Assembly (NCBI RefSeq): GCF_011058165.1
Contig: NZ_JAALEG010000020.1
Location: 1-64,000 of the forward strand
DNA length: 64,000 nt
DNA from: Rhodococcus aetherivorans
Lineage (GTDB): Bacteria > Actinomycetota > Actinomycetes > Mycobacteriales > Mycobacteriaceae
Direction: 5' to 3'
Shown here in pieces: positions 14,477 through 41,540 of this stretch. Under the pieces are notes generated by a model that saw nothing but the letters and a program-made list of their open reading frames with translations, searched no databases and had not been told where the DNA came from. A program made the position numbers and the translations under genes. Numbering within the stretch: position 1 is the first letter of the stretch; each line of letters begins with the position of its first letter.

Positions 14477-14754
14477 TGTTTGGCCGCTGCGCGGCCGGAG
14501 GTGGGTGACGTGCCCACCGGACACCGGCAGCGGCACCCGCGGACGGCGACACCGCCCGCGGAACCGTATGCACCGACGGTGTCGGTCTTCGGTAGTGACC
14601 TTCCGGACCCGGTCCGGACGGTTTCGATCGACGACCGCCTCCGCACGCTCGGCCCGTGAGACGCGGGCACGGGCGATCGGTGCGCAGCCGCAGCCACGAG
14701 GGTTGTGGCGCCCGCGCGGGTACGGCGAAGACGAGAGGGAAGAGAAGAGTAGAG

Positions 14755-37682: not shown

Positions 37683-40343
37683 ATGGCAGGAAAGTCGGGT
37701 GCCCGCGGATCGTCGTCAACGACCTCACGGTCGAGGTCGGGCGCGCGCGGCTCGTCCGCCGCCGCGGGCTCGTCGTCGCGGACGAAGAGCAGCACCCGCA
37801 AGCCCGCCCCGACGACCCGCCGGCAACCGGCCGCGCGGCGCCCGGCCCGCGCCACCACCCCCCGGCGCAAGGCGCCCGCCCGCTCGTCGCGGGGCAGCGT
37901 CCTGCACACGCTCGGTCGCGGGATCGGGAGCGGCTGGACGATGATCGCCCGCGGTGTGGGCGCCACCACCCGCACGATGGGCAGGGTGACGGAGGTCGAG
38001 CACGGCCACCGCCGCGACGGCATCGCCCTCGGGCTCATCGCCGCGAGCGTCGTCGTCGCCGGCACCGTCTGGTTCGCGGTCGGTGGCCCGCTCGGGGGCT
38101 GGCTCGAGACCGCAGTCCGCGCGGTCGTCGGCGGCGCCAGCGCGGTGCTGCCGCTGGCCGGCCTCGTGATCGCCGTCGTCCTCATGCGCACCGAGCCGCG
38201 GCCGGAGATCCGGCCCCGGCTCGTCCTCGGGTCGCTGCTCGTCGCGCTTCCCGCACTCGGCCTGTGGCACATCGCCTCGGGTATGCCGGACGACGGCCCG
38301 GGCCGCGAGGGCGGCGCCGGGTTCGTCGGCTACCTGGTGGGCGGACCCCTCACCGACGGTCTGACGGTGTGGCTGTCGGTTCCGTTGCTGCTGATGGCGG
38401 CCGGCTTCGGGATCCTGCTGCTCACCGGCACGACGATCCGGGAACTGCCCGGCATGTTCCGCGACTACTTCGGTCTGCACTACCGAGCCGACGACGAGTA
38501 CGGCGAGTACGACCCGGACCCTGCCGGCGGCTACGACCCGGAGCGCGACCCGACCCTGTTCGACGCCGACGGCTATCCCGTCGAGCGGCGCACCCGGACC
38601 CGGCGGCGCACCCCGGTCGAGAACTACCCCACGGACGAGTTCGACGGCGACGCCCGCACCGAGGTGCTGCCCCTGTGGGAGCCGGATCCGGCGCCCGCCA
38701 CGTCGCCGGCACCCGAACCCGAACCGGCGCCGGAACCGCCGCGGGCCCGCACCCGGCCCAAGGCGGCCCCCGCACCGGTCCCGCCGGCGGAGGAGCCACC
38801 CGCCGACGACAAGCTCGAGCCGCTCGTGCCCGATCGGGTGGTCGAGGGCGACTACACCCTGCCGTCGCTCGGGCTGCTGCTCGAGGGCGACCCACCCAAG
38901 CAGCACAGTTCGGCGAACGATCAGATGATCGAGGCCATCACCGAGGTGCTCGAGCAGTTCAAGATCGACGCCGCCGTCACCGGCTTCACCCGCGGCCCGA
39001 CGGTCACGCGGTACGAGGTGGAACTCGGCCCGGGTGTGAAGGTCGAGAAGATCACCGCACTCGCCCGCAACATCGCCTACGCCGTGGCCACCGACAACGT
39101 GCGACTGCTCGCGCCGATCCCCGGCAAGTCCGCGGTCGGCATCGAGGTCCCGAACTCGGATCGTGAGCTGGTGCGTCTCGCCGATGTGCTCGCCGCACCG
39201 TCGACCCGCAAGGACCATCACCCGCTGGTGATCGGGCTCGGCAAGGACATCGAGGGCGACTTCGTCTGCGCGAACCTGGCGAAGATGCCGCACCTGCTGG
39301 TCGCCGGCTCCACCGGCTCCGGCAAGTCGAGCTTCGTCAACTCGATGCTGGTGTCGCTGCTCGTGCGCGCCACGCCGGACGAGGTCCGGATGATCCTCAT
39401 CGACCCGAAAATGGTCGAGCTCACGCCCTACGAGGGCATCCCGCACCTGATCACGCCCATCATCACCCAGCCGAAGAAGGCGGCCGCCGCCCTCGCGTGG
39501 CTGGTGGAGGAGATGGAACAGCGCTACCAGGACATGCAGGCCAACCGGGTGCGGCACATCGACGACTTCAACACCAAGGTCAGGTCCGGCGAGATCACCG
39601 CGCCGCTCGGCAGCGAGCGCGTCTACCGGCCCTACCCGTACATCCTGGCGATCGTCGACGAGCTCGCCGACCTGATGATGACGGCCCCGCGCGACGTGGA
39701 GGACGCGATCGTGCGGATCACCCAGAAGGCCCGCGCCGCCGGCATCCATCTGGTGCTCGCCACGCAGCGGCCCTCGGTGGACGTCGTGACCGGCCTGATC
39801 AAGACGAACGTGCCGTCGCGGCTCGCGTTCGCCACGTCGTCGCTGACCGACTCCCGGGTCATCCTCGACCAGCCCGGTGCCGAGAAGCTCATCGGCATGG
39901 GCGACGGCCTGTTCCTGCCGATGGGCGCCGGCAAGCCGATCCGGATGCAGGGCGCGTTCATCACCGACGAGGAGATCGCGGCCGTCGTCGACTTCGCCAA
40001 GAACCAGAAGGAACCGGAGTACACCGAGGGCGTCACGACGGCGAAGGCGGGCGAGAAGAAGGACGTCGACCCCGACATCGGCGACGACCTCGACGTTCTC
40101 CTGCAGGCGGTCGAGCTGGTGGTGTCGAGCCAGTTCGGTTCGACGTCGATGCTGCAGCGCAAGCTGCGCGTCGGCTTCGCGAAGGCGGGTCGGCTGATGG
40201 ATCTGATGGAGACCCGCGGCGTCGTCGGTCCCAGCGAGGGGTCCAAGGCGCGGGAGGTCCTGGTCAAACCGGAGGAACTCGACGGCCTGCTGTTCTCGAT
40301 CCGCGGCGGCGGGGACGGGGCGGCGCCGGCGCCGGCGGAGTAG
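37683..40343 (+). CDS. ftsK: DNA translocase FtsK/SpoIIIE
   Basis: FtsK pumps chromosomal DNA through the closing septum and activates XerCD at dif. The 886-residue protein starts with a basic Ser/Arg-rich tail. About four transmembrane helices follow between residues 115 and 260, then a Pro/Ala-rich acidic linker, the alpha/beta motor with Walker [12 protein letters not shown] (about residue 540) and Walker [12 protein letters not shown], and the winged-helix gamma domain that reads KOPS ([22 protein letters not shown]). ATG 37683 lies seven bases after a TAACCT -10-like box (37670-37675), so it is probably leaderless. Confidence 0.96.
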
Positions 40344-40396
40344 GGCCGGCGGCACGGTTCGATGCCGCGACCCGCGTGTGGTTGAATGGGAGACGT

Positions 40397-40542
40397 GGAG
40401 GGGAGTATCCCCTAACCCGCGGCAGTTCCGTCAACACGTGCGACACCGATGTCGTTCCGGGGCTGCCGACCTCGAAGCCGCACCGTCGAGCTGCGATCCG
40501 AGGTGGGAGAGACCTCCGGTGGTTAGCTGTACCTACCGGAGG
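40397..40542 (+). promoter_or_regulatory. Probable yybP-ykoY manganese riboswitch upstream of terC
   Basis: The 210-bp leader of terC holds hallmarks of the yybP-ykoY Mn2+ riboswitch: the loop GGGGAGTA (40400-40407) and a distal GAGACC, closed by stem P1 (GGAGG 40397-40401 with CCTCC 40513-40517). The P1 3' strand extends to CCTCCGGT (40513-40520), which is perfectly complementary to ACCGGAGG (40535-40542), the terC Shine-Dalgarno. So P1 and the SD-sequestering stem exclude each other, and metal binding that stabilises P1 would free the SD. Class assignment rests on motif recall and on the terC partner. Confidence 0.78.
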
Positions 40543-40553
40543 AATATCTGCCG

Positions 40554-41540
40554 ATGCATGTCACCCCGCTCACCTGGATCGTCACCATCCTGGTGATTCT
40601 CGGGCTCTTCGTCTTCGACTTCTACGCCCACGTCCGCAAACCGCACGCGCCGTCGCTGCGCGAGTCAGGCTTCTGGTCGGCGGTGTTCATCGGCCTCGCC
40701 GTGGTGTTCGGCGTCGTGGTGTTCGCGATCTGGGGGCCGACGTACGGCGGTGAGTACTTCGCCGGTTACGTCACCGAGAAGGCCCTCAGCGTCGACAACC
40801 TGTTCGTGTTCGTCATCATCATGTCGACCTTCGCGGTGCCGCGCGAGTACCAGCAGAAGGTGCTCACGATCGGCATCGTCCTGGCGCTCGTGATGCGCGG
40901 GGCGTTCATCGCCGTGGGTGCCGCGGCCATCAACGCCTACAGCTGGGTGTTCTACCTGTTCGGGGCGTTCCTCATCTACACCGCGATCAAGCTGATCCGC
41001 GAGCACGGAGACGAGGTCGAGCACGAGAAGGAGCGGGAGAACCGCATCGTCTCGCTGGTCCGCAAGGTGTACCCGACCACCGACGAGTACCACGGCGACA
41101 AGCTGTTCACCCGGATCGACGGCAAGCGCTTCGCCACCCCGATGCTGCTCGCCCTCGCCGCCATCGGCTTCACCGACATCCTGTTCGCGCTCGACTCGAT
41201 CCCGGCGATCTACGGCCTCACCAGCGAGCCCTACCTGGTGTTCACCGCCAACGCGTTCGCCCTGATGGGCCTGCGGCAGCTGTTCTTCCTCATCGGCGGT
41301 CTGCTCGAGCGGTTGGTCTACCTGTCCTACGGCCTGTCCGTGATCCTCGCGTTCATCGGCGTCAAGCTGGTGCTGCACGCGCTGCACGAGAACACCCTGT
41401 CGTTCGTCAACGGCGGTGAGCACGTCGCGGTGCCGGAGATCTCGACCTGGCTGTCGCTGGGCGTGATCGTCGGCGTGCTGGTGGTGACGACCGTCGCGAG
41501 CCTGCTCAAGACGCGCAGCGAGAAGGCCGACCTCACCTGA
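40554..41540 (+). CDS. TerC family membrane protein, probable Mn2+ exporter
   Basis: This 328-residue TerC/Alx-type protein has about nine transmembrane helices. It has the two family acidic signatures EKALSVDNLFVF and DILFALDSIPA, whose Asp residues are thought to form the metal path. Alx- and TerC-type proteins under yybP-ykoY control export or adjust Mn2+. ATG 40554 follows GGAGG (40538-40542) at eleven bases. With the mntABC-R importer operon 30 kb upstream, the window contains both halves of manganese balance. Confidence 0.9.
   Translation: MHVTPLTWIVTILVILGLFVFDFYAHVRKPHAPSLRESGFWSAVFIGLAVVFGVVVFAIWGPTYGGEYFAGYVTEKALSVDNLFVFVIIMSTFAVPREYQQKVLTIGIVLALVMRGAFIAVGAAAINAYSWVFYLFGAFLIYTAIKLIREHGDEVEHEKERENRIVSLVRKVYPTTDEYHGDKLFTRIDGKRFATPMLLALAAIGFTDILFALDSIPAIYGLTSEPYLVFTANAFALMGLRQLFFLIGGLLERLVYLSYGLSVILAFIGVKLVLHALHENTLSFVNGGEHVAVPEISTWLSLGVIVGVLVVTTVASLLKTRSEKADLT

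Follow-up and report, generated by a model that had tools for sequence, protein, structure and literature searches.

The alx and mntP leaders of Escherichia coli have been reported as Mn-sensing riboswitches (PMC9603457), and for mntP a Mn-dependent mode of translational control has been described in which the ribosome-binding site is inaccessible without Mn (PMC11647493). The Mn2+ riboswitches of L. lactis and X. oryzae combine a P1.1 switch helix, a metal site between L1 and L3 and an L3 adenosine, and are described as transcriptional (PMC6754395; PMC11087558). In L. lactis, L3 reads UCA41AUUC, and the invariable L3 adenosine contacts Mn2+ (PMC6754395). An actinobacterial case has also been listed: the leader of Corynebacterium glutamicum cg2157 (terC) was assigned to yybP-ykoY with 49.13 bits in the 2013 Rfam, and its transcript was observed (PMC3890552).

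Here we analysed the leader of a terC gene in a 64,000-nucleotide stretch of Rhodococcus aetherivorans DNA, the whole of which is called the window. No study of this leader was found in the literature on the class, as covered by titles and abstract openings of mostly open-access papers. We conclude that the leader very probably belongs to the yybP-ykoY (Mn2+) riboswitches and acts as a translational ON switch; it appears to be a diverged member of the class, ordinary but well supported.

Anatomy of the terC leader

The leader, with all the elements described here, is the interval between ftsK (end at 40343) and terC (40554-41540), and all of its features lie on the forward strand. terC encodes a 328-aa Alx-type TerC family membrane protein (PF03741, 180.1 bits; TIGR03718 R_switched_Alx, 387.7 bits against a cut-off of 246.4), and its ATG at 40554 is 11 nt downstream of the Shine-Dalgarno (SD) sequence. 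A TGTGGTTGAATGG box at 40377-40389 is a probable promoter -10 region. By eye, an identical or closely similar box recurs at a comparable distance in leaders of the Rhodococcus type (e.g. L003, L004, L005, L007 and L015), and with this box as the -10 region the transcript would start at about 40394. A consensus scan of 40300-40600 returned no sigma-70 promoter.

Base-by-base checking bore out the pairings that a first-pass annotation of the leader had proposed. GGAGG at 40397-40401, the 5' strand of P1, pairs with 40513-40517 at five of five positions, and the switch strand CCTCCGGT (40513-40520) pairs at eight of eight with the SD arm ACCGGAGG (40535-40542; SD core 40538-40542). The switch strand can thus serve either as the P1 3' strand or as an anti-Shine-Dalgarno, and the two pairings exclude each other as that annotation had stated, since 40513-40517 is common to both. 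The L1 motif GGGGAGTA (40400-40407) and GAGACC (40509-40514), which forms the 3' side of L1 and continues into P1, were likewise confirmed.

Between the two P1 strands, P1.2 is formed by TCCC (40408-40411) and GGGA (40505-40508), and P3.1 by CGGCAG (40420-40425) and CTGCCG (40463-40468). L3, CGTCAACACG (40429-40438), holds A40433 in a UCA motif; by this motif and the alignment alone, A40433 would be the equivalent of the Mn2+-contacting A41 of L. lactis. A P3.2 hairpin, GCGACA-CCGA-TGTCGT, occupies 40440-40455, and the P4 stem-loop extends over 40469-40504, with outer pairs between 40469-40474 and 40499-40504.

The gap between P1.2 and P3.1 is 8 nt (40412-40419), too short for another hairpin, and the junction is therefore probably three-way. 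The fourth arm of the four-way junction in crystal structures is named P2. By eye, the E. coli alx leader is equally short in this stretch and has no room for P2, whereas in mntP the stretch from L1 to P3 could accommodate a P2 hairpin. The L. lactis and X. oryzae riboswitches share the P1.1 switch helix, the L1-L3 metal site and the L3 adenosine with the terC leader, but differ from it in their transcriptional mode and in their four-way junction (PMC6754395). Because alx is equally short there, the four-way junction and its P2 arm seem not to be class-defining.

Conservation and covariation of the aptamer

We examined the aptamer in alignment A1, which holds 77 distinct actinobacterial leaders and no proteobacterial rows, and from which covariance model R1 was built. 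Because GGGGAGTA, CGTC, ACG and AGAC were fixed in the pattern used to select the rows, these letters are invariant by design; the pairing was not imposed. The pattern was present in 79 of the 135 loci examined; among the 80 TerC-similarity loci (the best 80 of 584), it was present in 51 and absent in 29. These 29 patternless close terC relatives, found among L001-L080 with 1 kb fetched upstream, include Nocardia (L009-L013, L017-L019, L022-L025, L034, L039 and L040), Mycobacterium (L027-L030 and L049) and Rhodococcus P-2 and IEGM 1379 (L001 and L008), as well as L066, which is masked by N. The motif pattern has apparently been lost or gained lineage-wise among terC relatives.

Over the 77 leaders, 87.7% of 2049 cells pair according to the structure derived from the window, and both partners have changed in 22 of the 27 pairs. 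The covariation score was 0.493; shuffles gave 0.232, and slid partners no more than 0.178. By helix, the cells were paired at 97.9% in P1 (double-sided changes in 3/5 pairs), 99.4% in P1.2 (2/4), 89.2% in P3.1 (6/6) and 92.3% in P4 (5/6), and at the outermost position of P1, G-C, C-G and A-U pairs are all seen. Unprompted, RNAalifold recovered P1, P1.2, P3.1 and P4. It did not predict P3.2, a weak helix that is 64.2% paired in the alignment and at which inserts vary. The covarying P1.1 switch helix, P1.2, P3 and P4 of the class are thus present in the terC leader, with P3.2 weak. The L3 adenosine is an A in all 77 rows, at a position where the selection pattern allowed A or G.

In the P3.2 region, an insert with GATGCCGATCATC is conserved in the Gordonia loci L016, L020, L032, L035 and L056, and a near-identical one occurs in L026.

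Homology to the E. coli leaders and detection by RF00080

With filters off, R1 matched the E. coli alx leader at the correct place with 46.8 bits (E=4.8e-12), and the mntP leader, also at the correct place, weakly with 19.1 bits (E=2.6e-4; next match 7.1 bits); the tool E-values of R1 are rough. The terC leader of the window, itself a training row, scored 96.5 bits, and elsewhere in the window R1 gave 16.2 and 13.3 bits. Given such comparable scores at unrelated places, the mntP match counts through its position, and it is the alx match that carries the homology argument. By this combined sequence and structure model, the terC leader is homologous to experimentally reported members, strongly via alx and weakly via mntP.

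The L1 motif GGGGAGUA together with a 3' GAGACC, found at 40400-40407 and 40509-40514 in the terC leader, is also present in alx and mntP, and R1 aligns GGGGAGTA with the same letters in both. The alx leader further resembles the terC leader in its CGTCATTACG loop and TCCGG, in P1, P1.2, P3 and P4 that R1 can align, and in controlling an Alx/TerC-type gene. It differs in the sequences of P1 and of the expression platform; in the terC leader it is the switch strand that pairs 8/8 with the SD. The mntP leader is alike in its translational mode, which we propose here for terC, but it controls another gene and has TCAACATACT as L3 in place of CGTCAACACG. The C. glutamicum cg2157 leader is likewise listed as yybP-ykoY before terC in an actinobacterium (PMC3890552).

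The first-pass annotation had named RF00080 as the model to search with and a missing hit as one half of what would refute it, and this search was negative: in Rfam 15, the terC leader had no match at the gathering score of 45 bits, nor at E<=10 on 260 nt. The same model found nothing at E<=10 on the alx leader and placed mntP at 41.6 bits, under the cut-off (regions L136 962-1058 and L137 1874-2004). The negative result on the terC leader is therefore uninformative, and the gathering score, which alx and mntP fail too, was not taken as class-defining. Among 20 relative loci searched at E<=10, RF00080 gave two matches, both below the cut-off: L111 at 38 bits, a locus originally brought in by RF00080 itself, and L004 at 15.2 bits. 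In 200 genomes of the order, none passed the cut-off, 23 had a match at E<=1 and five at E<=0.01. Rfam 15 RF00080 thus under-detects the class. The sole Rfam match of the window at the gathering score was an Actino-pnp RNA (RF01688, 58 bits) at 14581-14639.

Pairing of the switch strand with the Shine-Dalgarno sequence

Among 33 leaders outside the training set, at least seven of the eight switch-strand bases pair with a downstream arm in 30, compared with 24 of the 165 GGAGG sites of the window that have at least 7/8 complementarity nearby, the loop search ranges of the two counts differing somewhat. GGAG lies in the downstream arm of 31 of the 33. This set comprises 29 leaders from the order and four of the second-terC type, with 29 distinct switch-to-SD stretches; leaders with a BLAST match of at least 80 nt to a training row showed 75-92% identity. 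In the second terC leaders (L139 and L192), P1 is CGAAAG:CTTTCG, and the start-codon arm has changed jointly (GAGAG, GAAAG). Beyond its core, the SD hairpin covaries modestly: pairs 6-8 are present in 186 of 210 cells, and 2000 shuffles averaged 175.9 and reached 185 at most. The ungapped register did not fit 16 of 86 leaders, 12 of which are from the genus Rhodococcus and have one extra A (bulge). Twenty-one Micrococcales-type leaders were excluded from the SD-hairpin count, as they have a different platform.

By eye, the Micrococcales terC leaders (L062, L069, L070 and L074) have P1 as CAAGG:CCTTG and a TTGGCG/CGCCAA hairpin without an SD. Their 5' P1 strand, CAAGGGG, is complementary to a CCCCTT(T)G stretch running into the SD.

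We also asked how often such features arise by chance. The arrangement CCTCCGGT-N(4-30)-ACCGGAGG occurs at a single place in the 6.43-Mb genome (both strands), and the backwards control gave 0. An 8/8 arm at a loop of 4-30 was present at three of the 165 GGAGG sites of the window (both strands), two of which are the terC hairpin on its two strands. GGGGAGTA by itself had a shuffle mean of 0.60 and was present in 48 of 100 shuffles; being expected by chance, it was rejected as statistical support on its own. The pattern GGGGAGTA..CGTCA..ACG was less common by chance (5/100 shuffles). The main support for the element is conservation and covariation, not chance counts. A chance GC-rich SD hairpin that senses nothing would agree with the RF00080 negative, with the chance expectation of GGGGAGTA and with the frequency of near-complete complementarity at GGAGG sites, yet it is contradicted by the covariation, by the highly significant match of an actinobacterial model to E. 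coli alx and by the recurrence of the element before terC across Actinobacteria. We consider such an origin extremely improbable.

The comparative evidence of covariation, conservation and the R1-alx match supports the yybP-ykoY class that the first-pass annotation had assigned to the leader. Comparative evidence also supports its designation of 40513-40520 as the switch strand and its prediction that Mn2+ would turn translation on, the direction being our inference.

In secondary-structure calculations, which leave tertiary contacts out of account, the P1-closed state had -61.0 kcal/mol and the SD-hairpin state -76.1 kcal/mol, so that the P1 state was 15.1 kcal/mol less stable. When only the aptamer was folded, a structure containing a local GGGG/CCCC hairpin was 3.0 kcal/mol more favourable than one with P1 enforced. 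SD bases were 14-65% unpaired with P1 imposed, compared with at most 0.3% otherwise. Since secondary structure favours the SD hairpin so strongly over P1, the decision probably falls during transcription, and the computed expectation is that Mn2+ would have to act before the SD arm emerges.

A scan of 40300-40600 found no intrinsic terminator-like site, which favours translational control, perhaps with Rho involved, as it is in E. coli mntP. The same aptamer might instead have a partly or mostly transcriptional output, with Rho terminating the untranslated, SD-sequestered leader and Mn2+ relieving this by restoring transcription-translation coupling. Rho termination has been reported in the E. 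coli mntP riboswitch region (PMC11647493), and the lack of an intrinsic terminator-like site fits this account, while translational control is what the perfect SD pairing, taken alone, would lead one to expect. We regard a substantial Rho contribution as somewhat unlikely, and it adds to the translational reading of the terC leader without replacing it.

Copies in the genome and the order

In the window's genome, R1 reported two copies at E<=0.01, both upstream of terC: that of the window and L139, before a second TIGR03718 terC. A third copy, recognised at motif level, precedes the GDT1-family gene (PF01169) of the genome; its leader (L200) was reported by neither R1 nor RF00080, and RF00080 had no match on L139 either. 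Two further R1 matches in the genome, ranking third (19.9 bits, E=0.17) and fourth (15.1 bits, E=3.7), were left out of the count; the third, L140, lies at an unrelated place and has no GGGGAGTA.

At E<=0.01, R1 had matches in 160 of 200 genomes of the order, a count that includes training sources (at least G000, G022, G025, G051 and G057). The count for the genus, 18 of 18 genomes with R1, is not independent, the leaders being R1 training rows or duplicates. R1 reported nothing in some genomes with an RF00080 match, e.g. G108 (38 bits). Because neither model covers the class, these counts are lower bounds. A TerC relative was present in 50 of the 57 loci L142-L198, although the best TerC match in L151 is located 5' of the element. 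The remaining seven have ORFs with ELGDKSQ and ELGDKT motifs, and the one tested was GDT1.

GDT1 (PF01169) is what we take to be the UPF0016 family. UPF0016 is described as a Mn efflux family (PMC13274385). The genes after the element, terC, the second terC and the GDT1-family gene, thus place it in metal (Mn) homeostasis.

The GDT1-family leaders (L200 at about 1306-1490, on contig C164 of the window's genome; L191 and L193-L198) have a related aptamer with an L3 of the GTCGACATACTGG type. They are predicted to form a relay of two steps. In the first anti-SD step, a switch strand CCTTCGG.. pairs with ..CCGGAGG; in the second, read by eye and in a fold of L200, CCTCC can pair with that upstream GGAGG or with the start-codon SD.

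An RNA of the yybP-ykoY fold could also respond naturally to another main signal, such as alkaline pH, or to pH and Mn2+ jointly. The best E. coli match of R1 is alx, whose reporter responds to alkaline pH alone and to Mn, and maximally to both (PMC9603457); reporters of alx and mntP alike give their strongest response when Mn is combined with alkaline pH (PMC9603457). Against a mainly different signal stand the retained L1, L3 and position of the Mn2+-contacting adenosine, as well as the copy upstream of the GDT1-family gene. We therefore hold it to be improbable, and retain Mn2+ as the likely ligand; by analogy with the E. coli reporters, alkaline pH may matter too for the terC leader.

Proposed mechanism and implications

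From the anatomy, conservation, covariation, alx homology and genomic context observed for the terC leader, we infer its ligand, direction and timing as follows. At low Mn2+, 40513-40520 would pair with 40535-40542, so that the SD is buried and terC is poorly translated. Mn2+ would bind between L1 (40400-40407) and L3 (40429-40438), where A40433 would be the adenosine that senses it. Once docked, the aptamer would stabilise P1 (40397-40401 with 40513-40517) and remove the switch strand from the SD arm, and with the SD exposed, TerC protein would be made in Mn excess. The decision would fall during transcription, before the SD arm emerges.

More broadly, and tentatively, Mn2+ riboswitches may be numerous in Actinobacteria and mostly escape the public RNA model in its current form, with at least three platforms possibly built on one aptamer: SD capture by the P1 strand (terC), a two-step relay with a deciding second anti-SD (GDT1-family) and the 5' P1 strand as anti-SD (Micrococcales). 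As part of this possible picture, the window's switch would be a one-way decision during transcription, the SD-captured state being computed as so stable.

In the terC leader, a probable translational Mn2+ switch of a Rhodococcus-type bacterium can be read clearly, down to the individual bases predicted to act in it. Its interest lies in the Rfam blind spot and in the varied expression platforms, and Mn regulation in Actinobacteria is probably under-annotated where RF00080 is the sole model used.
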